A stretch of DNA of 64,000 nucleotides from Bacteroidaceae bacterium (GTDB taxonomy: Bacteria > Bacteroidota > Bacteroidia > Bacteroidales > Bacteroidaceae), in NCBI GenBank assembly GCA_017466325.1, contig JAFTUK010000029.1, forward strand, positions 1 through 64,000. Reading direction: 5' to 3'. The position numbers were made by a program, and so were the translations under genes. Positions 584-63,107 of the stretch are shown here, one piece after another (the first letter of the stretch is position 1; each line of letters opens with the position of its first letter). The notes under the pieces are model-generated. The model was not told the origin of the DNA and did not search any database. It saw only the letters and a program-made list of their open reading frames with translations.

Positions 584-1165
584 CTAAGCGTTAAGGGGTT
601 CCATCTGATGTTTGGGGATGTAGGTGGTGGCATAGGAGATGATGCCGGGGATGGTGACAACAACACGGGTTTGGGTGTGGATGCGTGCAACTCGGCCAAT
701 GACTCCTTTGAAGGGGCCGTCCGTAATGCGGACGGGACCACCAGAACGGTAGTGTATCTCGGCATCGGTGACGGAATAGGATTGGGGCAGTCCCACGTTG
801 ACAAGTCGGATGAGGTTTTCCATATTGTCGTCGGGGACTGTTATAGGGGCGTATTGAGCGGTGAGCGAGGTGCAATTAACGGTGAGCGGTGAGCGGTGAG
901 CGGTGAGCGGAGGCTGTTGGCTGACTTCTGACTGGTGTACAAATTGGATGGTGGTATTTTTTATGATGTTGTGGATATTGTCGTAAGTGCCATAGACAAA
1001 GAGCAGGTCAGGCCGTGAGGGCATCTGCTGCCATACCTTTTCCTCACCAATCATGGTGGGACGATATTCCGTGGGGGTGAAGGCGGTAAGGCCTGTTCCC
1101 GACAAATGTTCACAAGCAGAGAGGGCATTGCCGTCTGTAGTGCGAAGAATGTACCAGCGATACAT
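584..1165 (-). CDS. UpxY-like NusG-family transcription antiterminator
   Basis: This 193-residue protein begins with a NusG N-terminal type fold signature (RWYILRTT, residues 3-10) and ends with a KOW-like segment (RITDGPFKGVIGRVARI, about residues 145-165). That is the layout of the Bacteroidales UpxY proteins, which are known to bind elongating RNA polymerase and allow transcription of capsule operons. Between the two parts, about residues 83-105, lies a low-complexity stretch rich in LTAHRSPLT-like sequence. It is encoded by a 7-bp tandem array at about 860-910 and looks like an expansion rather than conserved domain sequence. The ATG at 1165 directly follows another short 7-bp array. The operon it would serve must lie left of the window, beyond a 583-bp spacer. 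The exact target is inference. Confidence 0.8.
   Translation of the reverse strand: MYRWYILRTTDGNALSACEHLSGTGLTAFTPTEYRPTMIGEEKVWQQMPSRPDLLFVYGTYDNIHNIIKNTTIQFVHQSEVSQQPPLTAHRSPLTVNCTSLTAQYAPITVPDDNMENLIRLVNVGLPQSYSVTDAEIHYRSGGPVRITDGPFKGVIGRVARIHTQTRVVVTIPGIISYATTYIPKHQMEPLNA
882..909. repeat. GGTGAGC heptamer array inside a coding region
   Basis: Four consecutive 7-bp units of GGTGAGC type run without interruption, with degenerate units on the left from about 858. The array lies within the reading frame of the UpxY-like gene, and 21-bp multiples keep the frame open. Confidence 0.9.
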
Positions 1166-1503
1166 ACGGTGAGCGGTGAGAAAGGATGTTAAATGTTAAA
1201 CGTTAAACGAGATCGATTTTGACCACGAATCACACGAATCGAACGAATCTTTTTTAAATTATCAACGGATTGTACGGAGTTTACGAACTGAAATCGGAAA
1301 TCGGAAATCGGAAAACTGGTTTATCGCACACAGACTGCTTTAGCTTGATGAGCGTAGACGACTGCTTTAGCTTGATGAGCGAAGGCGAATAATAAAGCAC
1401 GGATTTCACAGAATATACTGATATATTGGGGTTGAAGACAAGTCTTCGCAACCATGTTGCTGAAATCTTTCGCTAAACAGCTCATACGCTTCACGCTAAC
1501 CGT
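1166..1503. other. repeat-rich spacer between the two UpxY-like genes
   Basis: No gene is seen. A short GGTGAGC array (about 1168-1185) abuts the start of the left-hand gene. Then follow three 9-bp units (cacgaatca-like, about 1223-1250), a 7-bp array of gaaatcg (about 1292-1317), the second copy of the 27-bp pair (1333-1386) and the second GAAGAC palindrome (1434-1447). The right half is a diverged copy of 281-491. Confidence 0.75.
1333..1386. repeat. 27-bp tandem pair, copy B
   Basis: This second occurrence of the gactgctttagcttgatgag tandem pair (1333-1359 and 1360-1386) matches 292-345 almost base for base. Confidence 0.9.
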
Positions 1504-2421
1504 TCATCTCTCACCGTTATCGTCTATCGGTTCCAGAAACGCGGATGGGATATATGCTGTGGCTATGGTAAAGAGACCTTCCACGATGACGGCAACACGT
1601 TGCTGGCCTTGGTAACGTGCCACACGGCCTGTGACTCCGGAAAAGCGACCTTGGGTGATGCGCACCTGCTGGCCTTTTGTGAAATGGGTATCTGTCTGGG
1701 GCACAAGGGCTATGTTACCGTCGTCCACGGCACATATTATGCGGAGACTCTCCATCTGGCGCTCAGGGACAACGAGAGGGCGGGAAACGGTTTCACGGCC
1801 TTTGGTTTCCTTTGTGTAATAGAACCGTAGAAAGGGGAGGTGTGCATTGTCGTAGACAAAGGCCTGCACTTCCTGCAATGTGCCAAAGGCGAAGAGAATG
1901 TTGGGGATACGTGACACACGCAAGTTTCTACGCTTGCCGTCAACCTCCTTTATCTGCTCCATGGTGGGCCAATAGGCAGTGCCACCATGAGCGGTGATAT
2001 AGTCGTATGCCAGTTGCTCGCGACCATAAGTGGTGCGGAGGGCATACCAGTGGGGAACGGGGAGCGGGGAACGGTGAGAGGTTAGCGGTGAGGGGGTAGT
2101 GGTGGGAGGATTTTGTTCCTTTTGCTCGTTAATCGTTAATCGATCTTCGTCAAGCACTCTTGCGGAAAGGGTGTTTTTGGTGGACACCCCATTTTGTGCA
2201 CTTACTGGCAGGGAAACTGCTGGGTGTACTTTGGGGAGGGCATCGGAGGCAAGTCCGGTGCAGGGAATGGGATTGACCTTTCCGGGTATGACAACATCTG
2301 TCGGTACAGACATTTTCGTAAAATCCGTAGCTGCCCACGACTGAGCTGCGAGATGGAAGATACGGACACAAAAAAAGCGTGGAACCATCGTTGTCCGTCC
2401 CACGCATCGAGGCTCTCGCAT
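1504..2421 (-). CDS. UpxY-like NusG-family antiterminator with long N-terminal extension
   Basis: Residues from about 123 to 305 form a typical UpxY/NusG protein: WYALRTTYGREQ at the start, then SRIPNILFAFGT, and a KOW segment near VRITQGRFSGVTGRVARYQGQQ. The first 120 or so residues resemble no domain I know. The join is made by eight 7-bp repeat units (2052-2107) that encode SPLTSHRSPLPVP just before WYALR, where sister proteins have their initiator Met. No ATG or GTG sits close to the domain start. Either the gene is read as a fusion from ATG 2421 or ATG 2313, or it has lost its own start. The C-terminal residues NGER and the stop are also repeat-like. It is probably an antiterminator, but whether it is functional is uncertain. 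Confidence 0.7.
   Translation of the reverse strand: MREPRCVGRTTMVPRFFCVRIFHLAAQSWAATDFTKMSVPTDVVIPGKVNPIPCTGLASDALPKVHPAVSLPVSAQNGVSTKNTLSARVLDEDRLTINEQKEQNPPTTTPSPLTSHRSPLPVPHWYALRTTYGREQLAYDYITAHGGTAYWPTMEQIKEVDGKRRNLRVSRIPNILFAFGTLQEVQAFVYDNAHLPFLRFYYTKETKGRETVSRPLVVPERQMESLRIICAVDDGNIALVPQTDTHFTKGQQVRITQGRFSGVTGRVARYQGQQRVAVIVEGLFTIATAYIPSAFLEPIDDNGER
2052..2107. repeat. heptamer array at the NusG-domain junction
   Basis: There are eight 7-bp units of ggggaac, ggtgaga, ggttagc and related types in phase. They lie immediately upstream (minus-strand sense) of the codons for HWYALR in the UpxY-like gene. Confidence 0.9.
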
Positions 2422-2952
2422 TGCCCGTAAAAGTCGAAACGAACAACGCCAAAGCCCACGCCGATATGAATATACACCTTTCCCACAACTGCATTACGCA
2501 AGGGTACACCTTATAATTATATATAAGGTATAGCACGTGCTGCACTGGCAGTACGCGAGAGGGCTTATAATCACACCCGGGGCATTCACCGTTGCTATGT
2601 TTTTGACTTTTACATACGGAATTTGCGAGATTTCGATGCGTCAAGAACAGAGCGTCTAAGTAAACGCCTTTCTATATGTCAGACTTTCTCTTCTTCCCCA
2701 CCCTTTTCCTTTGAGATGTCCCTACTCTATTAGAACGAGGACCACCCAACTCGGCGTGGACTATCCGAAAACCATTGTACGAAACGCTTTTCGCTAACAG
2801 ATTTGCACTTCGGACATAGAAAGTCGTTACAAATATAATATTTTTTTTCCTAATATGGATAAATAGATGTAAAAAAAACAGCTTACAGCGGTTTTAACCC
2901 CAATACCACCAACGATTGGAGATGCTCCCCCCAGAGCATGCATTGCGTCCTT

Positions 2953-3047
2953 AGTGGCGGCAAAAAGAACCGCCAATGGCGGTGAACTTTATCGCCAATG
3001 GCGGCTAATTTCATCGCCACTGGCCGTGAATTTTATCGTCACTGGGA
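2953..3047. repeat. 22-bp periodic GCCACTGGCGG-type palindromic repeat
   Basis: Units of the form atcgccaatggcggctaatt repeat with about 22-bp period three to four times, each with a small palindrome centred on CCA(A/C)TGG. The same motif occurs in the hairpin at 20830-20902, so this is a dispersed family. Confidence 0.8.
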
Positions 3048-3202
3048 ACTCGGCAAGAAACCGATATCCCCAATCGGGCATTTATCGTTATGATGACAAG
3101 AGACCTTGTGTTTGAACAGATATTTTGCCGCTTTGAGGGCGCAATGTGGTTCCATTGCAACCGAGAAGTGACGAAACAGATGACAAAAATGGCTTTATTA
3201 GC

Positions 3203-3338
3203 GCGTAACCGCCTAATGAACCGATTTGCCCCCACCTTTGGTTTTGAACAAAGGCGAATACGAAGAGGCCGTTTCTGAACCGGGATTCAGAAACGGTCTT
3301 ACTTCGTGCTATCCCCAATCGGGCATTAGGCGGTTACG
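3203..3338. repeat. 15-bp inverted repeat enclosing a second hairpin
   Basis: CGTAACCGCCTAATG at 3204-3218 is matched exactly by its reverse complement at 3324-3338. Between them, AGGCCGTTTCTGAA (3266-3279) pairs with its near-perfect complement at 3286-3299 around a 6-nt loop. Neither hairpin has the U tract of a simple terminator. Confidence 0.8.
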
Positions 3339-3379
3339 TGCTAATGACCGACTTGGGATTATAGACAGATTATATAATG

Positions 3380-5125
3380 TTAGCGAGGGACCGTATCAGT
3401 CTTTACAGAATCACTGATTTCGAGCACCCTTTCTGCCACGGTCTTGTAGGTAGAGTCATGGAGAAGGCTGTCCTTCTCGGCTTCTATCTCCCTCTGGATG
3501 TACTTTTCGGCCTCCACCGTCTGGGGGGTGCCGTTGCCCCATACCAGTTCGTAGTAACCACGGTCCAAGGGACGATGTGCTCCGTCATAGAGGAAGGCGA
3601 AGACAAACATGTTACCACCCGTCTCGTCTCCCTTATATCTTGAGTATTCGCCCATGGGATGGAGTGCTGCGTATGCCACCTCGCCCTGCAGAGCCTTCTC
3701 GTTGATGCGAACGAAGAAGAAGCGGTCCTTCTTTTCGGCATAGGCGTTGGTGATGACGATAGATGAATCCTGGCTGTTGACACGGAACTCGAGGTCGGTA
3801 CCCTTCTCGCCGAACCAGTCCTTGACCACGAAGGTGCTGTCGTCCATCATGGTCATCTCTATCTGCTGGTGCTGGGGAGAGTTGCACAGAGTACCCTGCG
3901 TCTGCACGTTCCATACGGGAGCGGCGGCAAACAGAGTGCCGATGTACATGATCAGCACGTACACCCAATGTGCGAAGATACCTGCACAGATACCGCCGAG
4001 GAAAGAACTGAGGAATGCCTTGGGAACCAGAGGACGGTAACCAAGAGAGTCAAGCGTAGCGGCATCGGTGCTGAGATAACCGCTCCAGCACATGCCCATG
4101 GCGGTACATACGGCTATGGCATTGCCGTCTATGATGCCCTTGGCGGTAAACTCGGGAATCAAGCCCAAGGCTGCGCCCACAGCACCCAGTGCGGTGATGG
4201 GGAAGGCAACAAGTTCGGGGGCAGAGAAACCGAAAAGCCACTCGAACACGAAACTTATCTTGCCTGCCACCCATGGCAGAAGTTGTGTTCCCTGGAAGGC
4301 TCCGCCAGTGTACACGATAATATCGTTGCCCATCTCATCCACACCCTCGGCAGTACCTCCAAAGGTGAGCATCATCACCAGGGTACTGATGATAAGCACG
4401 CCGGGGATAATGGCCATACCGATGGTGACACCGTCCTTACCTCCGTCCAGCAGGGCGTTCAGTACACGCACGAACAGGCTTCCGTCCTTCTTCTGCTCCT
4501 CTCCGTCCTGAGAGAAACTGACGTCGGGCAATACCTCTCCACCCGTATAGTTAGTCACGGCCGTAGCGTCCTCGTCCTTGTAGTTGGGGAACATCTTCAG
4601 GGTGAAGCGTTGCATGAGCCTGGTGGCAATGATGCATCCGAAGATGGCACCGCTCAAGCCCACAAAGGGAGCCAGGAAATAGCCCTGGCCTATCATGAAG
4701 ACCAGCACCAGCAGGCCCATGCCGAAGGCCGTACCGAAGTTTACCAGCGACACGTGCTGGTACTTCTTGAAGTAGCGGGCAAAGCCCTTGTCCTGACTGA
4801 GGGCAATGATTGCCGGGTTGTCACTGAGGAAAGTGAGTACCGCCGCCAGCGAAGCCACACCGGGCATATTGAACACGGGGCGCATGATGGGACGCAGAAG
4901 GCGCTGCAACAGGTCCACAACTCCGAACTCCACGAAAATCTTGCCCAGAGCACCGGTTATCACGCACATGCCCATGAGGTAGAACACGGTGTTGAGCAAC
5001 AGGTCGTGTGCCGTGTGCATGATGGTGTTGAGCATGTTGGCAAATCCCATCACACTGCCCATGTATCCAAACAGGGCAACGATGATGAGCAGGCATGGAA
5101 TGCCATTAGGAATCTTTTTAAGCAT
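3380..5125 (-). CDS. Gate-domain (SpmA/SpmB-like) inner-membrane protein with C-terminal soluble domain
   Basis: The first 400 or so residues of this 581-residue protein are strongly hydrophobic, with about ten membrane segments, and carry nucleoside-recognition/Gate features such as FLSDNPAIIALSQDKG and GNAIAVCTAMGMCWSGYLS. This fits the SpmAB-like membrane protein family, whose substrate is not established. From about residue 400 the chain turns into a charged, soluble region of about 180 residues that I do not recognise. It contains aromatic-rich strands (DRFFFVRINEKA, YYELVWGNG) and ends in a charged helix. The family members I know are mostly membrane part only, so this tail is notable. 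The porin gene lies 108 bp upstream on the same strand and may share its transcript. Confidence 0.8.
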   Translation of the reverse strand: MLKKIPNGIPCLLIIVALFGYMGSVMGFANMLNTIMHTAHDLLLNTVFYLMGMCVITGALGKIFVEFGVVDLLQRLLRPIMRPVFNMPGVASLAAVLTFLSDNPAIIALSQDKGFARYFKKYQHVSLVNFGTAFGMGLLVLVFMIGQGYFLAPFVGLSGAIFGCIIATRLMQRFTLKMFPNYKDEDATAVTNYTGGEVLPDVSFSQDGEEQKKDGSLFVRVLNALLDGGKDGVTIGMAIIPGVLIISTLVMMLTFGGTAEGVDEMGNDIIVYTGGAFQGTQLLPWVAGKISFVFEWLFGFSAPELVAFPITALGAVGAALGLIPEFTAKGIIDGNAIAVCTAMGMCWSGYLSTDAATLDSLGYRPLVPKAFLSSFLGGICAGIFAHWVYVLIMYIGTLFAAAPVWNVQTQGTLCNSPQHQQIEMTMMDDSTFVVKDWFGEKGTDLEFRVNSQDSSIVITNAYAEKKDRFFFVRINEKALQGEVAYAALHPMGEYSRYKGDETGGNMFVFAFLYDGAHRPLDRGYYELVWGNGTPQTVEAEKYIQREIEAEKDSLLHDSTYKTVAERVLEISDSVKTDTVPR

Positions 5126-5190
5126 ATCTTTTAATTTTGTTTTGTATCAGAATCAGATTGTTCTCGAACAGGATTAAGGTTAGAGCAGGG

Positions 5191-5233
5191 GCTCGCTCAC
5201 CGCTCACCTTTCACCTCTCCTTTTCCCGTTTTC
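5191..5233. repeat. short heptamer array before the porin stop
   Basis: Degenerate 7-bp units (gctcacc, gctcacc, tttcacc, tctcctt, ttcccgt) lie in the spacer between the Gate-domain gene and the porin gene, directly beside the porin stop codon. Confidence 0.75.
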
Positions 5234-6325
5234 CTACCATTTGTTTATTGCCCACTTCAAACCTTTCAGCACGTCGAGGTAAATCTTAGCACCTACGTTC
5301 ACACGTATCTGCCCGTCCTGCATGGCACCTCCGGGATTGGTATTCACCCCCCAACTGTAGCCAGCCGAACCGTAAAGTCTCAGCACCTCAGGGTACTTCT
5401 TGAAGGGTTCGTACTCTATGCCTCCGCTCACACCGTGCATCTCTGTGCCGTCAAACACGTAGCAGTCGGCATCCGTACCGGTATTGTTCACGTCATAGGT
5501 GTACTTGGCAAACAGGCGCACGGTGCTATGTGGCTTGCCGCTCATCTCGGCAATGACGCTACAGTCCTCGAACAGGAAAGTCTGGCGGCTGCTGGCACGG
5601 TTCACGTAATCCAGTTCCAGCCACAAACGTTTAGGGAGGAAGTTGAACTTGTTGCCAAGTGCAATATAGTTCATCCAACGGCCTTCTGTACACTGGAAAG
5701 CATTCAGCGACCAGATAGTTTCCCATATGCCGTGCCTGCCGTTCCACATCAACGAGAAGCCATAGGTGTTGTTGCTTCCTATATGCGTACGGAAAGGGCT
5801 GTTGCTGAACTGGAAGGTCAGACGGTCGTTCTCGCCGAAGTTGTATGCCACGCTGGCACCAAACTGATAGCATCCGATATGGTTCCAATACTCGCTGTTG
5901 CTGTTGTACATGTCTATGGGCGGACGGTCGTACTCGTATCCGCCTATGGCCACCACCTGCTTACCTGCAGAGATGAGCCAGTCCTTGTTGGGAGCATAGT
6001 TCAGCACCATCCAGTCTGTGGAGTTCCAGAAATTGCGTTCGCTGGTTATATTCAGACGTTGGCGCCAAGAGAAACTCAGACCCTTGTAGAGCCTGGCATC
6101 CAGGCGCAGGTTGAAGAAGTCACCACGGAAGCCCGTGCGGTCATCGTCCGTCACACCGGCCGTGCGGAACATCTGCCAGCCGAAACGTCCCTCCAACGAG
6201 AATTTCAACACCTCGGGGCCCTCATACTGCACCTGCTTTCTCGCCCCGTGAGAATCAGGTTCCTCTGCATGTGCAACCATGGAACAGGCGCACATCATTA
6301 CCAAAGATGCAAGTAACTTTTTCAT
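5234..6325 (-). CDS. OprO/OprP-type outer membrane porin
   Basis: The 363-residue product has a clear signal peptide (MKKLLASLVMMCACSMVAHA). It is followed by alternating amphipathic strands rich in aromatic residues, for example GLSFSWRQRLNITSER, WMVLNYAPNKDWLISAGKQ and LRLYGSAGYSW, and it ends in a Trp. This suits a phosphate-selective-porin-like beta barrel in the outer membrane; the permeating solute is not predictable. The frame is open further upstream, but the ATG at 6325 is chosen because it starts the signal peptide and because a full promoter ends only about 11 bp upstream. The mRNA leader would therefore be very short. Confidence 0.85.
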   Translation of the reverse strand: MKKLLASLVMMCACSMVAHAEEPDSHGARKQVQYEGPEVLKFSLEGRFGWQMFRTAGVTDDDRTGFRGDFFNLRLDARLYKGLSFSWRQRLNITSERNFWNSTDWMVLNYAPNKDWLISAGKQVVAIGGYEYDRPPIDMYNSNSEYWNHIGCYQFGASVAYNFGENDRLTFQFSNSPFRTHIGSNNTYGFSLMWNGRHGIWETIWSLNAFQCTEGRWMNYIALGNKFNFLPKRLWLELDYVNRASSRQTFLFEDCSVIAEMSGKPHSTVRLFAKYTYDVNNTGTDADCYVFDGTEMHGVSGGIEYEPFKKYPEVLRLYGSAGYSWGVNTNPGGAMQDGQIRVNVGAKIYLDVLKGLKWAINKW

Positions 6326-6336
6326 AATTTCGCTAT

Positions 6337-6544: not shown

Positions 6545-7540
6545 ATGAGGATACTGGTAACAGGAGCCAACGGGCAATTAGGTTCCGAAATGCGTCTGCT
6601 TGCCAAGAACAGCGCAGACGAGTTCCTTTTCACCGACGTAAACCAAGTGGAGGGACAGAAAACCGTATTTCTTGACATCACCGACCGCCAGGCGGTTCTG
6701 GACATGGTACAGACACACGGCATCGATGCCATCGTGAACTGTGCCGCATGGACTAATGTGGATGCCTGCGAAACCGACCCGGAACTGGCGGCTCTGGCCA
6801 TGAGGCTCAATGCCGATGCCCCGGAAAACCTTGCCCTTGCCATGAAAGCCGCAGGAGGTCTGCTGATACACATCTCCACCGACTATGTCTTCGGCACAGA
6901 GCCGTACAACACCCCATACCGCGAAGACCAGCAGGGCACACCCACCGGAGTGTACGGCCGCACCAAGAAGGAGGGCGAGGAACGCATCCTTGCCACCGGA
7001 TGCCAGTACGTCATCATACGCACGGCATGGCTCTACTCCGAGTTTGGCAAAAACTTCTGCAAGACAATGCTCCAACTTACCGCCGAACGCCCCACGCTGA
7101 ATGTTGTCTACGACCAGTGCGGCACACCGACATACGCACTGGACCTTGCCCGTGCCATCTGCACCATACTCCAGGACTACAACACCTCGCTCACCGCTCA
7201 CCATATTCTCCCTCCCATAGAGGGGAGGGATGGGGAGGGGTCTTTCCTCCCCTACCCCAAAACCGGCATCTACCACTATTCCAACCTCGGTGTATGCTCC
7301 TGGTACGACTTCACGCAGATGATACAACAGACGGCCAACACGCTCTGCACCTCGGCAGAAGCCCAACGCCATTGCGACATCCGTCCATGCCTGAGCAGCC
7401 AGTACCCATCGCCCGTGAAGCGCCCCTCCTACTCCGTCCTGGACAAGACAAAGATACAGGAAGCCTTCCATCTGGACATCCCCTACTGGACAGACTCCCT
7501 CAGGCAGTGCATCGCAAACCTAATTCAAACGGAAAAGTGA
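6545..7540 (+). CDS. rfbD: dTDP-4-dehydrorhamnose reductase
   Basis: RfbD reduces dTDP-4-keto-L-rhamnose to dTDP-L-rhamnose, the last step of the pathway, in the cytosol. Visible are the Rossmann motif GANGQLG (residues 8-14), STDYVF (about 111-116), the YxxxK pair (Tyr137, Lys141) and the GIYHYSNLGVCSWYDF segment. Between about residues 213 and 238 there is an extra stretch (SLTAHHILPPIEGRDGEGS), encoded by a short heptamer run and a REP-like double hairpin. It keeps the frame but interrupts the usual substrate-side region. The last residues (QTEK) and the stop codon are formed by another 7-bp array. The partners rfbA, rfbB and rfbC lie 38-45 kb away in this window. Confidence 0.92.
   Translation: MRILVTGANGQLGSEMRLLAKNSADEFLFTDVNQVEGQKTVFLDITDRQAVLDMVQTHGIDAIVNCAAWTNVDACETDPELAALAMRLNADAPENLALAMKAAGGLLIHISTDYVFGTEPYNTPYREDQQGTPTGVYGRTKKEGEERILATGCQYVIIRTAWLYSEFGKNFCKTMLQLTAERPTLNVVYDQCGTPTYALDLARAICTILQDYNTSLTAHHILPPIEGRDGEGSFLPYPKTGIYHYSNLGVCSWYDFTQMIQQTANTLCTSAEAQRHCDIRPCLSSQYPSPVKRPSYSVLDKTKIQEAFHLDIPYWTDSLRQCIANLIQTEK
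7209..7252. repeat. REP-like double hairpin inside rfbD
   Basis: TCCCTCCC (7209-7216) pairs with GGGAGGGA (7223-7230), and GGGGAGG (7232-7238) pairs with CCTCCCC (7246-7252). Related hairpins lie in spacers at 7719-7751 and 34726-34746. Here the element is translated. Confidence 0.8.
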
Positions 7541-7565
7541 AAACGGGAAACGGGAAACGATAACA
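7531..7565. repeat. heptamer array supplying the rfbD stop
   Basis: The units ggaaaag, tgaaaac, gggaaac, gggaaac and gataaca are in 7-bp phase. The TGA of rfbD (7538-7540) is part of the second unit. Confidence 0.9.
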
Positions 7566-16160: not shown

Positions 16161-17717
16161 ATGAACCATCTCCGTAATATCCTGTATGCTTCTGCATTGC
16201 TGACACCCGCTGCATCCTCCGTTGCCGGGGAAAAGCCGTCCGGCAACGACACTCGCCCCAATGTAATTCTCATAGTTGCCGACGACCTGGGATACGGCGA
16301 CCTTGGCTGCTATGGCGCCCAGGACGTCAAGACTCCCAATGTGGACCGCCTGGCAAAGAACGGCATACGCTTCCTCAACTCCCATGCGGCGGCCGCCACA
16401 AGCACCCCGTCGCGCTATGCCCTGCTTACCGGGCATTATGCATGGAGAAGGCCCGACACAAGGATAGCAGAGGGCAATGCCAGGATGATTATCCGACCGG
16501 AGCAGTACACCATGGCCGACATGTTCCGCCAGGCCGGCTACACTACGGCAGCCATAGGCAAATGGCATCTCGGATTGGGCGACAAGACCGCCGAACAGGA
16601 CTGGAATGCTCCCCTGCCATGCGGACTTCAGGACATCGGTTTTGACTATCACTACATAATGGCAGCCACCGGCGACCGCGTGCCCTGCGTGTTCATAGAA
16701 AACGGCTTCATCGCCGACTACGACCTCACGGCTCCCATAGAGGTAAGTTACCGCCAGAACTTTGCTGGCGAACCCACCGGCAAAAGCAATCCCGAAATGC
16801 TCTACAACCTGAAACCGAGTCCCAACCACGGCCATGACCAGTCCATCGTAAACGGCATTTCGCGCATAGGTTTCATGAAGGGGGGGGGCAAGGCTCTGTG
16901 GAAAGACGAGAACATAGCCGACAGCATTACCTCGCATGCCGTGGATTTCATCAGGAAGAACCACCGCGAACCCTTCTTCATGTACCTTTGCACCAACGAC
17001 ATACACGTTCCGCGCTTCCCTCACCCGCGCTTCCGGGGCAAAACAGACATGGGACACCGTGGCGATGCCATAGTTCAGTTCGACTGGACAGTGGGCGAGG
17101 TAATGAAAACCCTCAAGGACCTGAAAATAGACAAGAACACCATCATAATCCTGACCAGCGACAACGGCCCCGTTGTGGACGACGGATATGCCGATGAAGC
17201 GGTGGCACGCCTTGGCAACCACAAACCGGCCGGTCCCCTGCGCGGCAACAAGTACAGTTCCTTCGAAGGCGGAACCAGAGTGCCCTTCATCGTATCATGG
17301 CCCAATGGTATGGAAAAGGGCAACGACTCCAGAGCCCTGGTGTCACAAATAGACCTTTTCGCCTCGTTTGCCCAAATGCTGGACGCACGACTGCCCGAAG
17401 GTTCCTGCCCCGACAGCCGCAGACACTGGGATGCCATCACCGGCAAGGACGCCCAGGGATGCGAGTACGTGATAGAGCAGAACCTGTGGAACGTCCTGTC
17501 CGTAAGAACGTCCGACTGGAAATACATTGAGCCAAGCAACGGCGCGCCCTACATGAAACTCACCGACATAGAGACTGGCAACAGTCCTCTGCCCCAACTC
17601 TACGACATGAGCAAGGAAGGGGAACAGGAGAACCTCGCCAAGGAACGCCCGGAAGTAACCGAGCGTATGGCCAAGATTATCGACAACGAGCGCAAGCGGG
17701 GGAGCGGTGAAAGGTGA
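16161..17717 (+). CDS. exported serine-type sulfatase
   Basis: The 518-residue enzyme belongs to the formylglycine-dependent sulfatases. It has a signal peptide (to about residue 22), the metal-binding segment ILIVADDLGYGDLGCYG (about 36-52) and the catalytic signature S-T-P-S-R (residues 81-85) followed by YALLTGHYAW. Ser at position 81 means conversion to formylglycine needs an anaerobic (AtsB/anSME-type) maturase, which is not in the window. Further sites are GKWHLGLGD and TSDNGPVVDDG. The likely substrates are sulfated host or plant glycans in the periplasm. A run of nine G (16880-16888) encodes Gly-Gly-Gly. The last residues (GSGER) and the stop lie in a 7-bp array. Confidence 0.93.
   Translation: MNHLRNILYASALLTPAASSVAGEKPSGNDTRPNVILIVADDLGYGDLGCYGAQDVKTPNVDRLAKNGIRFLNSHAAAATSTPSRYALLTGHYAWRRPDTRIAEGNARMIIRPEQYTMADMFRQAGYTTAAIGKWHLGLGDKTAEQDWNAPLPCGLQDIGFDYHYIMAATGDRVPCVFIENGFIADYDLTAPIEVSYRQNFAGEPTGKSNPEMLYNLKPSPNHGHDQSIVNGISRIGFMKGGGKALWKDENIADSITSHAVDFIRKNHREPFFMYLCTNDIHVPRFPHPRFRGKTDMGHRGDAIVQFDWTVGEVMKTLKDLKIDKNTIIILTSDNGPVVDDGYADEAVARLGNHKPAGPLRGNKYSSFEGGTRVPFIVSWPNGMEKGNDSRALVSQIDLFASFAQMLDARLPEGSCPDSRRHWDAITGKDAQGCEYVIEQNLWNVLSVRTSDWKYIEPSNGAPYMKLTDIETGNSPLPQLYDMSKEGEQENLAKERPEVTERMAKIIDNERKRGSGER
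16880..16888 (+). repeat. G9 homopolymer in the sulfatase gene
   Basis: Nine consecutive G lie in the sulfatase reading frame about 240 codons from the start. A one-base slip would truncate the enzyme. Confidence 0.95.
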
Positions 17718-17737
17718 GAGGTGAGAGGATGAGCGAA
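17703..17737. repeat. heptamer array supplying the sulfatase stop
   Basis: The 7-bp units agcggtg, aaaggtg, agaggtg, agaggat and gagcgaa are in phase. The TGA at 17715-17717 spans the second and third units. Confidence 0.88.
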
Positions 17738-27661: not shown

Positions 27662-27724
27662 CCGCTTTCAGTTTCCTGCTTTCATTTTCCTGCTTTCCGC
27701 TTTCAGTTTTCCGTTTTCCGTTTA
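27662..27724. repeat. heptamer array, nine units
   Basis: Nine 7-bp units of ccgcttt, cagtttc, ctgcttt and ccgtttt type run without a phase break between the RluA-type gene and plsC (convergent genes). Confidence 0.92.
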
Positions 27725-27730
27725 TGAGGG

Positions 27731-28471
27731 CTACTGGTCTGGATTTTCCACCATGCCACGGTAATGTGGGGGCAGGGCGGACTCTATGACGGAGTATGAC
27801 TCATGCATGATGCTGTCCAGGTCCTCGCGGTATGGGATGGGGTCGTGGATGACGAGACGAAGTTTGTGGCGGGTGAGGAAGTTGAAACCCTTCTGGCGGG
27901 GCAGGACATCGAAACTGCCGTCTATGGTCACCGGCACTATGGGCAGGTGCAACTGATGTCCGAGCATGAAGGGTCCGCGGCGGAAACGTGCCATGTGGCC
28001 GGTGAAGGTGCGGCTGCCTTCCGGAAAGACCACTATGGAGGTACCTCCCTGGAGTGTTTCGCGTGCCTGTGCCTGAGTACGGGCAATGGCCTTGGGACCA
28101 CTCTTGTCCACCATTATGTGGCCGGCTTTCTCGCATGCACGTCCTATGAGGGGGATGCTGCGCAGTTCCTTCTTCATGAGCCAGCGGAAACTATGTCCCA
28201 GATAGCCGTAGACGAGGAAGATGTCGTAAGGTCCCTGATGGTTGGAGACGAAGACATAACTGGTATCCTTCTGTAGTTTCTCCCTGCCCACAATCTCTAC
28301 AGGCAACAATGGTATGCGGCACATGAGCCTGCTCCAGATGCACGGGGGCCAGTATGCCCAGAAGGATGCCTTGCCAAACGTGCACCCTACAATGGTGAGC
28401 AGGGCGGTGAGCAGGGTAGACAGTCCCAAAAGGGGCAGACATACTACGAGCTGATATATCTTATATAGCAT
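27731..28471 (-). CDS. plsC: 1-acyl-sn-glycerol-3-phosphate acyltransferase
   Basis: The 246-residue inner-membrane enzyme makes phosphatidate. It has an N-terminal hydrophobic region, the acyltransferase motif I NHQGPYD (His78, Asp83), motif III FPEGSRT (about residue 150) and a later PVTIDGSFDV. The family's length and motif spacing fit. The FtsB/DivIC-like gene starts transcription 32 bp upstream on the same strand. Confidence 0.9.
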   Translation of the reverse strand: MLYKIYQLVVCLPLLGLSTLLTALLTIVGCTFGKASFWAYWPPCIWSRLMCRIPLLPVEIVGREKLQKDTSYVFVSNHQGPYDIFLVYGYLGHSFRWLMKKELRSIPLIGRACEKAGHIMVDKSGPKAIARTQAQARETLQGGTSIVVFPEGSRTFTGHMARFRRGPFMLGHQLHLPIVPVTIDGSFDVLPRQKGFNFLTRHKLRLVIHDPIPYREDLDSIMHESYSVIESALPPHYRGMVENPDQ

Positions 28472-37185: not shown

Positions 37186-38391
37186 TTAATGGCAATGGCA
37201 ACACTGTTTCTTCTTTCTCAAGCCGAGTTTGGGGAGGACGAGGGCATTGACAAGCAGAAGCAGGAGCAAGCCCGTGCATATCCAACTGAACACGCCGGCA
37301 TGCTCATCGTGGCAGGAATGTACCTCCTTCAACTGATAGAGGAAATCTACCATACCGGAGAACTGGAGCATGTCGATGAGATAGCCGAAGGCCATGGCAC
37401 CGAGAACTATAGAAAGGATATAAACCAGCATGGTGCGCAATCCCAAGGAACGGCGGATGAGAAGCATGGATGCGAAGTTGCATGCAGGTCCCGCCATGAG
37501 CATAACCAGGGCGGCACCCGGCGTGAGGCCCTTCATCATCAAGGCCACGGCAATGGGTATGCTGCCCGTAGCACAGAGATACATGGGCATGGCTATGCAA
37601 AGGACAAGGAGCATGCTGGCAAGCGTATTGCCCTGGAAGACGGCAAAATATTCCGTGGGAACAAGCACCGTGATTGCGGCGGCCACAACCAAACCTATTA
37701 CCAACCATTTGCCTATGTCTTCCATCATGTCCACATAGGCATAGGTCAGTGCTTCCTTGATCTTGGTGAAGAAACTCTTGTGACTATGGCAAGCATCCTC
37801 TGCCTTCTTCTCTTCCGAATGGCAATGGCAAACGTGCTCAGCCTCCTCCTTATGTGAGTGGCAACAGCAGGAATGTTCTTCTGCCTTCTCTTCCTCCGAA
37901 TGGCAATGGCAAACGTGCTCTGCCTCTTCCTTATGTGAGTGGCAACAGCAGGAATGTTCTTCGGTCTTCTTTTCCTCCGAATGGCAACAACATTTATTCT
38001 CTGGTTCTACCTTGTCCACGATGACACCGCCGAAGATGGCCGTAAACAGGGCGGCTATGGGGCGCACTATGGCAAAGGGGAGTCCCATGAGGGAGAATGT
38101 GGCTATGATGGAATCCACACCCGTCTGCGGGGTGGCAATGAGGAAAGACACCACGGCGCCCTTGGAGGCACCTTCTTTCCTGAGCGACATGACCGTGGGT
38201 ATCACTCCGCACGAGCACAAAGGCAGGGGTATGCCCAGCAGGGCGGCATTGAGCACGCTACGGAAGGACTTGCGCGAAAGATACTTGGTATAGAACTTGC
38301 CTGGCACGAAGGCATGCATCAGGCCTGCCAGCAGAAAGCCCAGCAGCAGGTAGGGCGACATGCCGGTAATCAGATAAACAACTTCTTGCAT
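37186..38391 (-). CDS. SO_0444-type Cu/Zn efflux permease with His/Cys-rich loop
   Basis: The 401-residue membrane protein has two permease halves (LLGFLLAGLMHAFVPGKFY, GIPLPLCSCGVIP; later MPMYLCATGSIPIAVALM, MLMAGPACNFASM) as in the DUF318/ArsP-like SO_0444 family of proposed Cu/Zn exporters. Between them is a hydrophilic loop with about 70 residues of HSCCCHSHKEEAEHVCHCHS type, in which a 27-residue unit is repeated about twice. The C terminus is again CCHCH. The loop is very likely a metal-binding sink. A TACCTTTG -7 box is at 38419-38426. The Fur-family gene nearby suggests metal control. Confidence 0.85.
   Translation of the reverse strand: MQEVVYLITGMSPYLLLGFLLAGLMHAFVPGKFYTKYLSRKSFRSVLNAALLGIPLPLCSCGVIPTVMSLRKEGASKGAVVSFLIATPQTGVDSIIATFSLMGLPFAIVRPIAALFTAIFGGVIVDKVEPENKCCCHSEEKKTEEHSCCCHSHKEEAEHVCHCHSEEEKAEEHSCCCHSHKEEAEHVCHCHSEEKKAEDACHSHKSFFTKIKEALTYAYVDMMEDIGKWLVIGLVVAAAITVLVPTEYFAVFQGNTLASMLLVLCIAMPMYLCATGSIPIAVALMMKGLTPGAALVMLMAGPACNFASMLLIRRSLGLRTMLVYILSIVLGAMAFGYLIDMLQFSGMVDFLYQLKEVHSCHDEHAGVFSWICTGLLLLLLVNALVLPKLGLRKKKQCCHCH
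37806..37990. repeat. 81-bp in-frame repeat coding for metal-binding units
   Basis: Two full copies and a partial third of an 81-bp unit (27 codons) encode the CCCHSHKEEAEHVCHCHS stretches of the permease loop. Confidence 0.85.
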
Positions 38392-55546: not shown

Positions 55547-55583
55547 TGCTAATCACAAACGCTAATTACTCATCCGCCTACTT

Positions 55584-55642
55584 GCAGTTTTCCGTTTTCC
55601 GTTTTCACATTTCCGTTTTCCGTTTTCACCTTTCCGCTTCCC
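55584..55642. repeat. heptamer array, about nine units
   Basis: gcagttt, tccgttt, tccgttt, tcacatt, tccgttt, tccgttt, tcacctt and tccgctt are in 7-bp phase, ending at the stop codon of the antiporter gene. Confidence 0.92.
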
Positions 55643-57097
55643 TCACTCTTCCTTCTTGTTTTCGGAGATGTACAGGAGTTTGTCTCCCACCTTCAGTTCC
55701 ATGCGTCCGTTGGGAATCATGAACTCGGAGCCACGCTTCACGAGCATCACCAGAGTGCCGGGGGCGATGTTCATGTCCATCAGGCGGTTTCCGTCCTCAA
55801 GCATTTCAGGGGTGAGGGTAACGTCGGTCAACTGGCTGTCTATCTCCTCGGGAATCTCCACGCCGAACTCGTTGCCCTCCTTCTCCTCGGGGAGGTCAAG
55901 GCTGAGCCACTTTGCTACGGGGGCGATGGTCATGCCCTGGAAAATCAGGGACAGGAGGGTGATGAAGAACACTATGTTGAAGATGACCTGCGAACCTGGA
56001 ATCTCGGACACCACGGGATAGGTGGCGAAGATGATGGGCACGGCACCGCGGAGGCCCACCCAGGAGACGAAGCACTTGGCCTTGAATGTCATCTGGCGGA
56101 AGGGCAGGAGGCATAGCATTACGGTGAGCGGACGTGCCACGAATATCATGAAGAGGCCTATGAGCATGGCGCAGACGGAGACTCCCAGCATCTCGTGAGG
56201 GTTGACCAGAAGGCCCAGAGAAAGGAACATCACTATCTGGCTGAACCATGTGAGGCCGTTCATGAAGGTGTTTATCTCCTTGCGGAAGACGAGCCGTGCA
56301 TTGCCCACGATAACGCCAAGGATGTACACGGCCAGATAGCCGTTGCCATGGAGCAGGTCGGTGATGGTGAATGTGATGAACACAAGGCTCAGCAAGAGGA
56401 TGGGATACAGGGAACTGTTGGAGAGGTTCACCTTATTTATAAGCCATACGGCCAGGCGTCCGAAGGCATAACCCATTACACCGCCCACGAAGAACTGGAC
56501 AAGCAGGTCCTTGACCAGAAGGCCAATGTCGAAACCGCTATCGCTGGCAATTACCTGGATGAGGGCTATGGTGAGCATATATGCCATGGGGTCGTTACTA
56601 CCGCTCTCCAACTCCAGCATGGGTTTGAGGTTCTCCTTCAGGTTCATCCTCTGCGAACGGAGCAGGTTGAAGACGGATGCCGAGTCGGTAGAGGACATTG
56701 TGGCGGCCAGCAGAAGGCTGGTCAGTATGGGCATGGCTATGTTCATGGACGAAAATCCGGAAAGCCAGAAGATGAAGCCGCCCGTGAGCAGGGTGGTGAG
56801 CAGCACGCCCACGGTGGAGAGTATCATACCCTGTGCCATGACGGGCTTTATGTCGCGCAACTTGGTGTCCATACCACCGGTGAACAGAATGATGCTCAGG
56901 GCTATCATACCTATGAACTGGGCATCCTTGGCACTGTTGAACTCAAGACCGAGACCGTCGGTGCCGAAGCCCATGCCCACGAGCAGGAACAACAACAAGG
57001 TGGGGATACCGAAGCGGTAGCCAGTCTTACTGATCATAATGGCGCAGAATATCAGTATCGCGCCTATCAACAGAATGTTTTCTGCGGTAAATATCAT
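55643..57097 (-). CDS. CPA1-type potassium/proton antiporter (NhaP2/CvrA-like)
   Basis: The 484-residue inner-membrane protein has about twelve membrane segments. The exchanger core shows LFTGGMDTKLRDI, STDSASVFNLLRSQ with LESGSNDPMAYML (the family ND motif), and FVSWVGLRGAVPIIFATYP. A cytosolic RCK_C (TrkA-C)-like domain sits at the end (about 405-484: IDSQLTDVTLTPEMLEDGN, GRMELKVGDKLLYI). This is the NhaP2 layout. A -7-like TACCTTTG lies at 57132-57139. Confidence 0.92.
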   Translation of the reverse strand: MIFTAENILLIGAILIFCAIMISKTGYRFGIPTLLLFLLVGMGFGTDGLGLEFNSAKDAQFIGMIALSIILFTGGMDTKLRDIKPVMAQGMILSTVGVLLTTLLTGGFIFWLSGFSSMNIAMPILTSLLLAATMSSTDSASVFNLLRSQRMNLKENLKPMLELESGSNDPMAYMLTIALIQVIASDSGFDIGLLVKDLLVQFFVGGVMGYAFGRLAVWLINKVNLSNSSLYPILLLSLVFITFTITDLLHGNGYLAVYILGVIVGNARLVFRKEINTFMNGLTWFSQIVMFLSLGLLVNPHEMLGVSVCAMLIGLFMIFVARPLTVMLCLLPFRQMTFKAKCFVSWVGLRGAVPIIFATYPVVSEIPGSQVIFNIVFFITLLSLIFQGMTIAPVAKWLSLDLPEEKEGNEFGVEIPEEIDSQLTDVTLTPEMLEDGNRLMDMNIAPGTLVMLVKRGSEFMIPNGRMELKVGDKLLYISENKKEE

Positions 57098-57950: not shown

Positions 57951-58001
57951 GGAACCTTCGCAATGCCCGTGAAAACGAGTCCCGACGCAAAGGGCATCGC
58001 G

Positions 58002-58056
58002 TCGTGAGGCGAAGAGCCTTGCATCGTGAGGCGAAGAGCCTTGCATCGTGAGGCGA
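58002..58056. repeat. 22-bp tandem repeat
   Basis: tcgtgaggcgaagagccttg(ca) is present twice exactly (58002-58023, 58024-58045), and its first 11 bases a third time. It lies between the nucleosidase gene and the following small gene. Confidence 0.92.
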
Positions 58057-58102
58057 TAAAACGCAACAAAATACAAGAACAATTACAGATAATATAAGGT
58101 AT

Positions 58103-58306: not shown

Positions 58307-58382
58307 TGGTCTATATTCTACCTTAATGCGTAATATCTATCTTTTTTAATGGTAGAAACATGCGCGTACTACCAAAAATATA

Positions 58383-58390
58383 TACCTTTG
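58383..58390 (+). promoter_or_regulatory. -7 element directly before pheA
   Basis: TACCTTTG ends 8 bp before the chosen ATG. No -33 is obvious. If used, the transcript has almost no leader. Confidence 0.45.
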
Positions 58391-58398
58391 CCAATACA

Positions 58399-59244: not shown

Positions 59245-59274
59245 CCCCAACATCCGGAACACACAAGCACAACA

Positions 59275-60447: not shown

Positions 60448-60513
60448 CGTCAATGTATCACCAACACGACATCAACACATATCATCAACAATAAAAAACT
60501 ACGACACTACAAT

Positions 60514-61575
60514 ATGGAATTAGATTTGCAACCCCTCAACCTCCCTTGCAGCACAGAGAGGCCTTTCATAATTGCAGGTCCCTGCTCTGCCGAGACAGAG
60601 GACCAGGTAATGAACACCGCCAAGCAACTGGCCGGCAAGGGTTTCCACGTGTTCCGTGCAGGAATATGGAAACCCCGCACCAAACCGGGCGGTTTCGAGG
60701 GCAACGGAGAAAAGGCCCTGCCTTGGATGCAGATGGTGAAACAGGAGACGGGCATGCTTACCGCCACCGAGGTGGCCACTCCCGAACATGTGGAACTGGC
60801 CCTGAAATACGGCATCGACATATTGTGGATAGGTGCACGAACCACGGCAAACCCCTTTGCCATGCAATCCCTGGCAGATGCACTGAAGGGTGTGGACTTG
60901 CCGGTATTCGTAAAGAACCCCGTGAATCCCGATCTCGAACTATGGATAGGTGCCCTGCAACGTCTGAACGGTGCCGGCATAAAGCGCTTGGGTGCGATAC
61001 ACCGTGGCTTTACCAGTTATGAGAAGAAACTGTACCGCAACGTGCCCATGTGGCAGATTCCCATCGAGTTGCACCGCCGTCTGCCCAACCTTCCCGTGGT
61101 GAACGACCCCAGCCACATCAGCGGCCGGCGCGACCTCATCGCTCCCTTGTGCCAGCAGGCCATGGACCTCGGTATGGACGGCCTTATGGTGGAGAGCCAT
61201 TGCGACCCGGACAAGGCCTGGAGCGATGCTTCACAACAGGTTACGCCAGATGTGCTCGACTACATCCTGTCCATGCTCACCATCCGTGAAACGGTGGACC
61301 TGACGGCTTCGCTCAGCACTCTGCGAAAGGGTATTGACGAGATAGACAACGAACTCATCGACCTTCTGGCAAAGCGTATGGGCATATCACGCGAAATAGG
61401 TGCATACAAGCGCAACAACGGCATGACCATCGTACAGACAAAGCGCTATAGCGAAATCCTGGACAAGCGTGCCGCACAGGGTGTACTGAAGGGCATAGAT
61501 GCAGAGTGCATCAAGAAGATATTCGAATGCATACACGAAGAGAGCGTGCGCCAGCAGGTGGAACTTTTACGTTAA
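60514..61575 (+). CDS. bifunctional 3-deoxy-7-phosphoheptulonate synthase/chorismate mutase
   Basis: The 353-residue enzyme joins the first step of the shikimate pathway (DAHP synthase, about residues 1-260: IIAGPCSAETEDQ, FRAGIWKPRTKPGGFEGNG, GARTTANPFAM, RGFTSYEK, DPSHISGRRD, VESHCDPDKAWSDA) with an AroQ-type chorismate mutase (about 268-353: LRKGIDEIDNELIDLLAKRM, IGAYKRNN, KRYSEIL). The DAHP part is the KDO8P-synthase-like type. The terminal ELLR and stop are within the first copy of the 78-bp repeat. Confidence 0.95.
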   Translation: MELDLQPLNLPCSTERPFIIAGPCSAETEDQVMNTAKQLAGKGFHVFRAGIWKPRTKPGGFEGNGEKALPWMQMVKQETGMLTATEVATPEHVELALKYGIDILWIGARTTANPFAMQSLADALKGVDLPVFVKNPVNPDLELWIGALQRLNGAGIKRLGAIHRGFTSYEKKLYRNVPMWQIPIELHRRLPNLPVVNDPSHISGRRDLIAPLCQQAMDLGMDGLMVESHCDPDKAWSDASQQVTPDVLDYILSMLTIRETVDLTASLSTLRKGIDEIDNELIDLLAKRMGISREIGAYKRNNGMTIVQTKRYSEILDKRAAQGVLKGIDAECIKKIFECIHEESVRQQVELLR

Positions 61576-61719
61576 GCCAAGAGGGCAGAACCAAACTTGT
61601 TTGAGTTATGCCTTGGCGAGTAAAAGAAGAACAAAGTTCAGCTTTTACGTTAAGCCATAAGAGCAGAACCAAACTTGTTTGAGTTATGCCTTGGCGAGTA
61701 AAAGAAGAACAAAGTCTAA
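61564..61719. repeat. 78-bp direct repeat, two units
   Basis: Units 61564-61641 and 61642-61719 agree except at a few positions. Each has an internal GCCAAG...TGCCTTGGC hairpin. The first begins with the last codons and stop of the DAHP synthase gene; the second runs to 17 bp before tyrA. Confidence 0.95.
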
Positions 61720-61735
61720 CTTATCAATAAGTAAT

Positions 61736-62509: not shown

Positions 62510-62519
62510 CCCTCAATTC

Positions 62520-62564
62520 CTATAGCCACTATAGAATCTATAGTCTCTATAGCATCTATAGAAA
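62520..62564. repeat. 9-bp tandem array of CTATAG units
   Basis: ctatagcca, ctatagaat, ctatagtct, ctatagcat and ctatagaaa are in 9-bp phase, just upstream of the phosphodiesterase start and a C7 run. Confidence 0.92.
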
Positions 62565-62574
62565 TCTCCCCCCC

Positions 62575-63060
62575 ATGACCCGCATCGCCCTCCTCTCCGA
62601 CACCCACGCCTACTGGGACGAACGCTATGCCAAATACTTCGCCGAATGCGACGAGATATGGCATGCCGGCGACATCGGTTCCCTGGAACTGGCCAACCGT
62701 CTGCAGGACATCCGTCCGCTCAAGGCCGTGCACGGCAACATAGACGGAGGCGACCTGCGCAGGATATACCCCGAAACACTGACATGGCAATGCGAGGAGG
62801 CAAAGATTATGATGACCCACATAGGCGGATACCCAGGGAAGTACGACCCTCGCATACGCAAGCAACTTTATGCCACCATGCCCGACCTGTTCATCAGCGG
62901 ACATAGCCATATACTGAAGGTCCAGTACGACCCTGCCCTATCCTGCCTGCACATCAACCCCGGTGCCGCAGGCCTGCAAGGATGGCAAACGGTACGCACC
63001 CTGGTACGCTTCACCATTGACGGAAAGCAATTCAAGGACCTGGAAGTAATAGAACTATAA
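62575..63060 (+). CDS. YfcE/MJ0936-type metallophosphodiesterase
   Basis: The 161-residue protein has the calcineurin-like metal motifs: LLSDTHAYWD (D and H), HAGDIGSLE, AVHGNIDGGD, MTHIGGYPG and FISGHSHILK. Length and order are those of the small YfcE family with Mn-dependent phosphodiesterase activity; the natural substrate is unknown. Confidence 0.93.
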   Translation: MTRIALLSDTHAYWDERYAKYFAECDEIWHAGDIGSLELANRLQDIRPLKAVHGNIDGGDLRRIYPETLTWQCEEAKIMMTHIGGYPGKYDPRIRKQLYATMPDLFISGHSHILKVQYDPALSCLHINPGAAGLQGWQTVRTLVRFTIDGKQFKDLEVIEL

Positions 63061-63072
63061 CCCTTACCCCCA

Positions 63073-63107
63073 CGGTTTTCCGTTTTCCGTTTTCACATTT
63101 CCGTTCT
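63073..63107. repeat. heptamer array at the DUF554 gene start
   Basis: cggtttt, ccgtttt, ccgtttt, cacattt and ccgttct occupy the 7-bp phase up to 4 bp before the ATG, where a ribosome binding site would be. Confidence 0.92.

Follow-up and report, generated by a model that had tools for sequence, protein, structure and literature searches.

Heterocystous cyanobacteria carry tandem 7-nt units in their spacers, known as short tandemly repeated repetitive (STRR) sequences. STRR fingerprinting has been used for Nostoc (PMC5088731, available part). The heptamers GGGAATC of Xanthomonas and GGGGA(C/T)T of Nostoc were described by Rehm et al. as quadruplex-forming repeats (PMC4692102, available part). 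According to the accessible sections of PMC4990558, the intervening sequence (IVS) of Coxiella burnetii contains an open reading frame (ORF) for S23p, has inverted termini, is excised by RNase III and carries strain-variable tandem heptamers upstream of the ORF; the intervening-sequence protein (IVP) of Xanthomonas forms a pentameric ring. The present analysis concerns tandem arrays of 7-bp units in a stretch of 64,000 nucleotides from a Bacteroidaceae bacterium (assembly GCA_017466325.1, contig JAFTUK010000029.1, positions 1 to 64,000), which is called the window in the following. These arrays are probably arms, mostly solo arms, of small IVS-like elements in mRNA spacers. They are not classed as an rRNA IVS, since they lie in or between protein genes and none of them is located in 23S rRNA.

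The observations behind this reading are the arrays themselves, their polarity, their presence or absence in related genomes, the inverted arms that flank IVP genes and the joint occurrence of one array family and its IVP. The genome containing the window is designated G000, relatives within the genus have numbers of the type G047, and L-numbers denote individual loci that were fetched. In the genus, each species was represented by one genome in the searches; most of these are drafts with 57–100% completeness. Family A comprises GGTGAGC-type units and family B GGAAAAC-type units. Genes were called by the author's own simple script. Block lengths, unit names and the placement of block types were read by eye from the printed sequence.

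Inverted arrays at IVP genes

In related genomes, the IVP/S23 gene (23S-rRNA intervening-sequence protein, PF05635) is flanked by these arrays in inverted orientation, and the complete elements in G000 and its relatives encode PF05635 proteins. At several sites a GGAAAAC array is followed by a short core and an inverted array, with a span of roughly 85–160 bp as judged by eye. One such block in G047 encodes an S23/IVP protein (PF05635), and G000 has another palindromic block at this position. Four array pairs fold as RNA with z-scores of -5.1, -9.7, -3.4 and -3.6.

The inverted-arm score compares the 150 bp before a gene with the 150 bp after it, and a score of at least 30 was taken as the threshold. 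Loci required sufficient flanking sequence and a good hidden Markov model score, which left 46 of the 60 loci L251–L310. The IVP loci examined are the best matches of each search, up to a maximum of 30. Within the genus, 29 of the 46 loci reach the threshold, compared to 1 of 132 genes in G000 and 1 of 91 genes in relatives (250–600 bp in length) and 1.5% of 597 G000 genes of all sizes. The excess of inverted arms at genus IVPs over the controls corresponds to a p-value of about 1e-18; for arms in direct orientation, IVP and control genes do not differ significantly (p 0.08). A further set of 25 B-like IVPs, which are 54–63% identical to the B-type protein, passes in 19 cases. Including this set, 66 of all 118 pooled IVP loci pass (62 of 114 if the four identified through their arrays are excluded). 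The best lag of the 66 passing arms is 7 in 43 cases and 8 in 19.

The 5' arms of the IVP genes are purine-rich in 41 of 47 cases and contain more G than C in 45 of 47, which is the polarity of the dispersed arrays. The median arm duplex energy is -61.8 kcal/mol versus -50.8 kcal/mol for control genes and -49.0 kcal/mol for mispaired arms, with overlapping ranges.

IVP genes are found at one gene boundary in 14 genus genomes (14 loci among L283–L308) with at least three different arm sequences. This boundary is presumably frdA-frdB. The pattern resembles that expected from arm exchange or from repeated insertion at this site. The start of one of the neighbouring genes was not found without a preceding IVP, all 14 matches being derived from IVP loci.

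Co-occurrence of the GGAAAAC family with its IVP

Judged by one conserved protein, the nearest relatives of G000 are G047 (100% identity), G048 (94%), G041 (93%) and G039 (91%), followed by G014 (87%), G037 (86%), G067 (83%) and G002 (81%). GGAAAAC dimers number 131 in G047, 106 in G000, 31 in G041, 29 in G048, 25 in G014, 13 in G037 and 11 in G039, and 0–1 in the other 132 of 139 genus genomes. IVPs with 74% or more identity to the B-type protein are present only in G047, G014, G041, G039 and G037, with the next best match at 63%. All five genomes belong to the seven array-rich ones (Fisher p 5e-8, with close kinship ignored). G067, a near relative, has neither a PF05635 match nor A or B dimers, and G002 likewise has no A or B dimers. 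Over related pairs, IVP sequence and arm sequence correlate only weakly, with a Spearman coefficient of 0.25. At the site matching that of the A-type IVP of G000, the reading frame is open in G037, G039 and G041.

Array families in the genome and in the window

A preliminary description of the window had listed arrays at ten positions, and period 7 was confirmed at all ten by Tandem Repeats Finder or in the printed sequence. The list is incomplete, as arrays at 2126–2142 and 7188–7202 had been overlooked. The claim that such arrays exceed chance holds. Exact lag-7 self-matches of at least 10 bases occur 9 times in the window versus a mean of 0.0 in 20 dinucleotide shuffles of it, and the other periods from 4 to 15 give 0 to 4 matches each, with period 14 at the top. 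When spacers only are considered, lag-7 matches of at least 9 bases number 6 in the window versus a mean of 0.00 in 20 spacer shuffles, 12 versus 0.10 in the window plus seven stretches not picked for hits, and 125 versus 1.00 (maximum 3) in all 55 stretches. In the latter set, period 9 ranks second (55 matches) and period 8 third (22). With over-represented tandem 7-nt units in spacers, the arrays belong to the heptanucleotide simple repeats (long simple sequence repeats, LSSR, and STRR). The phase is less strict than had been described, because 8-nt units (CGGATGAG, CGGGTGAG) and indels interrupt it, for instance at 2052 and 27662.

In the whole genome of G000, the GGTGAGC dimer (GGTGAGCGGTGAGC) occurs 37 times and the GGAAAAC dimer (GGAAAACGGAAAAC) 106 times; the reversed controls occur 0 times. 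The proposal of a shared degenerate unit agrees with the unit classes. The 74 runs of a 403-kb sample of G000 represent 22 classes, the largest being CGGTGAG (family A, 24 runs) and CGGAAAA (family B, 20 runs), and about 20 of the remaining 30 runs match [CAG]G[GT]N[RT]A as read from the list. This sample consists of the window and 20 stretches, 13 of which were picked for holding hits, and later stretches mostly surround GGAAAAC hits. The array densities are therefore not genome averages.

Coding sequence makes up about 79% of the 916 kb of G000 examined, yet predicted genes contain only 27 of the 159 runs found there. The dispersed arrays have a distinct polarity. Of the 52 runs that follow a stop codon by no more than 60 bp, 45 have the purine strand as the coding strand, a bias that is partly built in because this strand holds stop codons. 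Up to 60 bp before start codons, the purine strand is the template in 21 of 27 runs (Fisher p 2e-8 versus the post-stop runs). Merging of runs to blocks gives 43 of 48 after stops and 18 of 24 before starts (p 6e-8); the polarity count omits 53 runs far from genes and the 27 runs inside genes. Among spacers of 60–600 bp, only 1 of 64 array-bearing ones is divergent compared to 59 of 294 others (p 6e-5). Thus, position, strand and divergent-spacer counts show that arrays favour transcribed spacers with fixed polarity.

The arrays of the window are as follows.

855..910, plus strand: imperfect GGTGAGC array (family A) with about 8 units, in the coding region of the UpxY antiterminator gene 584-1165 (minus strand)
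1168..1209, plus strand: two GGTGAGC-type units, then about three GTTAAAC units; 3 bp separate the array from the start of gene 584-1165 (minus strand)
1290..1314, plus strand: GGAAATC array of 3.6 perfect units, in a spacer
2052..2109, plus strand: mixed GGGGAAC/GGGGAGC/GGTGAGA/GGTTAGC array with phase slips, inside the UpxY gene 1504-2313 (minus strand)
2126..2142, plus strand: CGTTAAT array of 2.4 units, inside the UpxY gene 1504-2313 (minus strand)
5191..5236, minus strand: array of mixed A and B units, located in the spacer that separates genes 3380-5125 and 5234-6280 (both minus strand)
7188..7202, minus strand: GGTGAGC dimer inside rmlD
7531..7559, plus strand: GGAAAAG/GTGAAAAC/GGGAAAC array (family B), containing the rmlD stop codon (which ends at 7540)
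17702..17733, plus strand: GGTGAGA array overlapping the stop codon of the sulfatase-like gene 16161-17717 (plus strand)
27662..27723, minus strand: imperfect array of GGAAAAC/GGAAAGC units that slips to 8 nt in places and terminates 7 bp from the stop codon of gene 27731-28471 (minus strand)
55551..55645, minus strand: block of about 95 bp with GGAAAAC units (55587-55627) and degenerate A-type units
63059..63110, minus strand: 52-bp block with a GGAAAAC array (63075-63105)

The location at gene borders that had been attributed to most arrays applies to those at stop and start codons; the arrays at 855–910 and 2052–2142 in the UpxY genes and at 7188–7202 in rmlD are exceptions. Both adjacent UpxY antiterminator genes hold heptamer arrays within the coding sequence (855–910 and 2052–2142), perhaps in the linker between the two domains of the protein. 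In rmlD, the region 7180–7241 contains GGTGAGC units and a CCCTCCC palindrome. This stretch, which includes the dimer at 7188–7202, varies in length between relatives, being 102 bp longer in G041, 42 bp longer in G048 and 19 bp shorter in G039; 102 and 42 are multiples of 3, 19 is not.

Other repeats accompany the heptamers. Period-9 arrays (TCCGATTAC-like and CACGAATCA-like) are further dispersed families among them (L211, L207 and L224; window 210–227 and 1224–1249), and a dispersed palindrome of type GTAGGGACACGGCATGCCGTGTCCCTAC lies inside or adjoins several array blocks (e.g. L192 and L246 of G047). The longer tandem repeats at 37786–37989 (units of 39–81 bp) and 61564–61715 (units of 78 bp) do not seem to be related to the heptamers. 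The sequence at 3065–3228 (about 160 bp) recurs whole or in part many times in relatives (about 74–91% identity) and is probably another dispersed element.

Turnover between relatives and rival explanations

The 55551–55645 block is missing in G048, G041, G039 and G037, where the flanking genes abut or overlap. At this boundary a short spacer of unrelated sequence is found in G014, G067 and G002, and an array together with further blocks in G047. The site of the 63059–63110 block is empty in G039 and occupied by a different palindromic block in G047. The BLAST alignments at the 55551 site overlap by 3 bp versus G048 and G041, and a similar ATA is found at 63060 versus G039. At the boundary of the 5191–5236 array, G047, G048 and G041 hold longer, different blocks. 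Another gene boundary has no array in G067, arrays only in G000 and G047, and arrays together with an IVP in G014.

For G000 and G047, 185 kb were aligned in blocks of 88–99% identity. The differences of at least 15 bp number 31. Whole blocks are exchanged in 17 of them, and 10 of these have a period-7 run in at least one of the two genomes; the other 14 are simple indels, with a length divisible by 7 in only 2 cases (21 bp each). With regard to copy change in unit steps, this comparison between species thus reveals mainly block exchange. In several spacers a GGAAAAC-bounded block in one genome stands opposite another palindromic block type in the other.

A second family of spacer blocks is bounded by GGACCCTCCCCC..CCCCTCC..GGGAGGGGAGTA and its inverse (L133, L137 and L218 of G000; L175 1765 of G047). 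Blocks bounded by GGACCCTCCCCC..GGGAGGGGAGTA occupy some of the heptamer-block gene boundaries in the other species.

These comparisons bear on the origin of the arrays, for which the preliminary description had proposed slippage or an element. If plain slippage were the source, the replication machinery would favour heptamers, arrays would grow where they are tolerated, and the link to IVP genes would reflect a shared liking for spacers. In most genomes, heptanucleotides are reported to outnumber other long simple repeats, and slippage of the polymerase has been proposed as their cause (Mrazek 2007, as cited in the available part of PMC4679880). Two near strains of Cyanothece differ mostly by indels in 7-nt steps (same source), and the two 21-bp indels between G000 and G047 are of this kind. 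Slippage is, however, disfavoured by the clean empty sites, the exchange of whole blocks, the units common to scattered sites and the fixed polarity, and by inverted arms at IVP genes as compared to about 1% of control genes. It is an unlikely source of the arrays, and slippage alone was rejected in view of the empty sites and the block exchange. Of the two proposed processes, the element is favoured by presence and absence, polarity and the IVP arms, and slippage looks secondary in view of the block exchange and the 2 of 14 indels.

The arrays might also be cis-regulatory RNA signals, bound by a host protein or serving as processing or decay sites, which are kept by selection and for which IVP genes are one target among many. 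Their rarity in divergent spacers and their fixed polarity would fit a transcribed signal, and translational control was proposed for TAACTGA arrays by MacGregor (PMC4679880, available part). Near relatives, however, differ in content at the same gene boundaries, and G067 and G002 do without A or B dimers. In an informal scan, ten window proteins had no obvious function in common (two of them match no family). Regulatory signals are thus a rather improbable explanation.

Equally, derivatives of a DNA transposon, resembling miniature inverted-repeat transposable elements (MITE) or repetitive extragenic palindromes (REP), would carry arrays as subterminal transposase-binding sites and the IVP as a passenger. 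The inverted array pairs of roughly 85–160 bp at several places agree with this, and the 3-bp overlaps at 55551 and 63060 hint at a 3-bp duplication, from two sites only. Yet the arms vary in sequence between elements while period and polarity are kept. The gene that recurs in the examined loci is the IVP and not a transposase, although these loci were fetched via IVP, and G000 contains no Y1 transposase (other transposase families were not searched). A DNA transposon origin is therefore hardly to be expected. REP sequences mobilised by a REP-associated tyrosine transposase (RAYT) were rejected, as Y1 transposase (PF01797) has 0 matches in G000 (88% completeness) and 5 of 14 control genomes are positive. 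Spread by the genome's own RVT_1 reverse transcriptase was likewise rejected, since no match was found in G000 or G047. This mark of diversity-generating retroelements is also absent from G037 and G014 and present in 5 of the 9 genomes searched. The bAvd profile is matched by two of four IVPs below the cut-off.

Beyond the genus

PF05635 is present in 126 of 139 genus genomes; across the phylum, 232 of the 296 genomes sampled have it. The IVP loci from the wider phylum have median arm scores of 21 (inverted) and 16.5 (direct), and short inverted heptamers are visible by eye in some. IVPs also occur in 33 plasmid records, mostly cyanobacterial and 13 of them from Nostoc. Of the 12 plasmid loci fetched, 7 pass the inverted-arm threshold, again mostly from cyanobacteria. 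Passing arms have the units GGGAGTA (Nostoc edaphicum), GGGAAAA-like (Nostoc ATCC 53789) and GGGTGTA (Calothrix brevissima), and a Gemmatirosa plasmid passes with a unit of about 8 nt. A passing IVP locus of Azospirillum lipoferum lies inside the large-subunit rRNA according to Rfam. The cyanobacterial plasmid IVPs L342, L343 and L347 are located between genes of CRISPR (clustered regularly interspaced short palindromic repeats) systems, twice cas6/cas4 and once cas10/Cmr3-family. A search for relatives of one IVP in viral contigs gave 6 pattern matches, none of which was confirmed.

At least 118 stretches, drawn from many phyla, contain a triple GGTGAGC. Among the matches listed, four of these 118 mixed-phyla loci contain an IVP gene, at 9, 71, 79 and 1834 bp from the array, although just 2.6% of the bases in these loci are within 80 bp of an array. 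The three nearest are from Verrucomicrobia, Bacteroidales and Betaproteobacteria. The repeats had been supposed to be specific to this lineage, which applies to the GGAAAAC unit in number (7 of 139 genus genomes), but the design recurs in other phyla. A mere oddity of the lineage was rejected on account of the triple GGTGAGC and the arm design found there.

Proposed explanation

A complete element would consist of a purine-rich heptamer array, an IVP gene (PF05635, S23/four-helix-bundle protein) and the array in inverted orientation. It would be positioned at a gene junction, after the stop codon of the upstream gene and before the start codon of the downstream one, or in Azospirillum inside 23S rRNA. 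In the RNA, the two arms would pair to form a long hairpin that encloses the IVP gene. By analogy with 23S IVSs, RNase III may cleave this hairpin, and insertion between genes would be tolerated because the hairpin would be cut. The upstream gene can terminate within the array, since the units hold TGA or TAA in several frames. Elements without an IVP and single arms would be non-autonomous or decayed copies, and the window would hold copies of these kinds. The IVP, which is ring-forming in solved relatives (the PDB entries 2gsc and 2rld have five chains each) and distantly Avd-like, may bind the repeats, perhaps with one unit per subunit, and may promote the spread of the element.

Several results weigh against the proposal that the arrays are arms of IVP elements, in addition to the two limits of the polarity counts given above. 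There is no IVP gene within the window, and its eight solo arrays do not fold (z -1.3 to +1.5). Neither a mobility event nor a mobilising enzyme was observed, the enzyme searches being confined to RVT_1 and Y1. The 118 pooled IVP loci form 16 single-linkage protein clusters, two of which have 72 and 31 members; by their median, 11 of the 16 clusters pass in inverted and 4 in direct orientation. In the wider phylum, just 6 of the 30 top-scoring IVP loci reach 30 (3 in direct orientation). The direct arms are stronger than the inverted ones in L347, L337 and L263, and L273 has no arms. Inverted halves are found inside 17 of 64 array spacers of G000 versus 84 of 320 mispaired spacers. Pairing within a single G000 spacer is thus not specific, because mispaired spacers are equally symmetric. 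The missing excess of symmetry fits interchangeable or solo arms, but adds no support by itself.

The coupling between array and protein is also incomplete. G000 and G048 contain many GGAAAAC arrays and no close B-type IVP (the best match is 53% identical in G000, and G048 has none). The A-type IVP of G000 (L262, C46:42647-42964) has one in-frame TAA. The arm unit of L267, another IVP locus of G000, is AGTAAAG/AGTAATT and does not belong to the 22 dispersed unit classes. As PF05635 is far more widespread in the genus than the A and B arrays, which occur in few genomes, the link is to particular IVPs and not to the family. Unit and protein are loosely coupled, because GGTGAGC arms flank IVPs of different clades.

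A wider generalization is more tentative, namely that tandem heptamer arrays across bacteria could largely be traces left by a single, so far overlooked class of mobile RNA-hairpin elements, with an IVP ring that recognises the 7-nt repeat as their sole protein. This would include the Bacteroidota families described here, the cyanobacterial repeats, GGGAATC of Xanthomonas, TAACTGA of Beggiatoa and others. The 23S rRNA IVSs would be the best-known members, insertion would take place at stop/start junctions of operons and arrays would be non-autonomous copies. Two puzzles would thereby be joined, the preference of bacteria for 7-nt repeats and the nature of the 23S rRNA IVSs with their S23 protein. 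If true, heptamer arrays and 23S IVSs are one very common class of mobile elements, a large family without a role gains a function, and the origin of a long-known, unexplained kind of bacterial repeat may be explained. It would then be expected that an IVP binds the repeat of its own element, that RNase III cuts the arms and that array families come and go with their IVP.

Comparison with known systems

Heptamer repeats and rRNA IVSs are already known; the likely source of the arrays, the arms of IVP elements, is new. In the open-access literature, with preprints outside the scope, no general link between heptamer arrays and IVPs was found. Searches of this literature for heptanucleotide repeats together with Prevotella, and for heptanucleotide together with the full STRR name, gave no paper.

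Among the described repeats, the element of Geobacter metallireducens (49 copies) is similar in having four heptamer units, of the type GGGACCG, and in being dispersed in and between genes; the available part of PMC2700814 reads it as a regulatory RNA element. The TAACTGA heptamers of Beggiatoaceae, Cyanobacteria and some Bacteroidetes also form short 7-nt arrays, mostly in spacers and with patchy distribution. They differ in 7-nt steps between two near strains, and some relatives have array-free spacers. In contrast to the arrays described here, they have one main unit, with related units rarely repeated, lie mostly just before start codons in the main genome and were proposed to have a translational role; the terms four helix, intervening and transposase do not appear in the text searched (PMC4679880).

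The Xanthomonas and Nostoc repeats share period 7 and polarity with the arrays of G000, the G-rich strand being coding after stops and non-coding before starts. They are likewise scarce between divergent ORFs, and 70 and 75 convergent pairs were counted in two Xanthomonas genomes. They were treated without a link to IVPs, S23 and four helix being absent from the main text, and generally no association with mobile elements was found (PMC4692102, available part).

The STRR repeats resemble the arrays in general form, as tandem 7-nt units in spacers. The plasmid records with an IVP are mostly cyanobacterial (13 of 33 from Nostoc), and several of the fetched loci have heptamer arms. The IVS of Coxiella burnetii shares with the complete elements the PF05635 protein and inverted ends pairing into a stem, and it also has tandem heptamers preceding the ORF (PMC4990558, accessible sections). 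It is present as one copy in 23S rRNA, whereas the elements described here lie in mRNA spacers, have arms built from repeats and are accompanied by many array-only sites.

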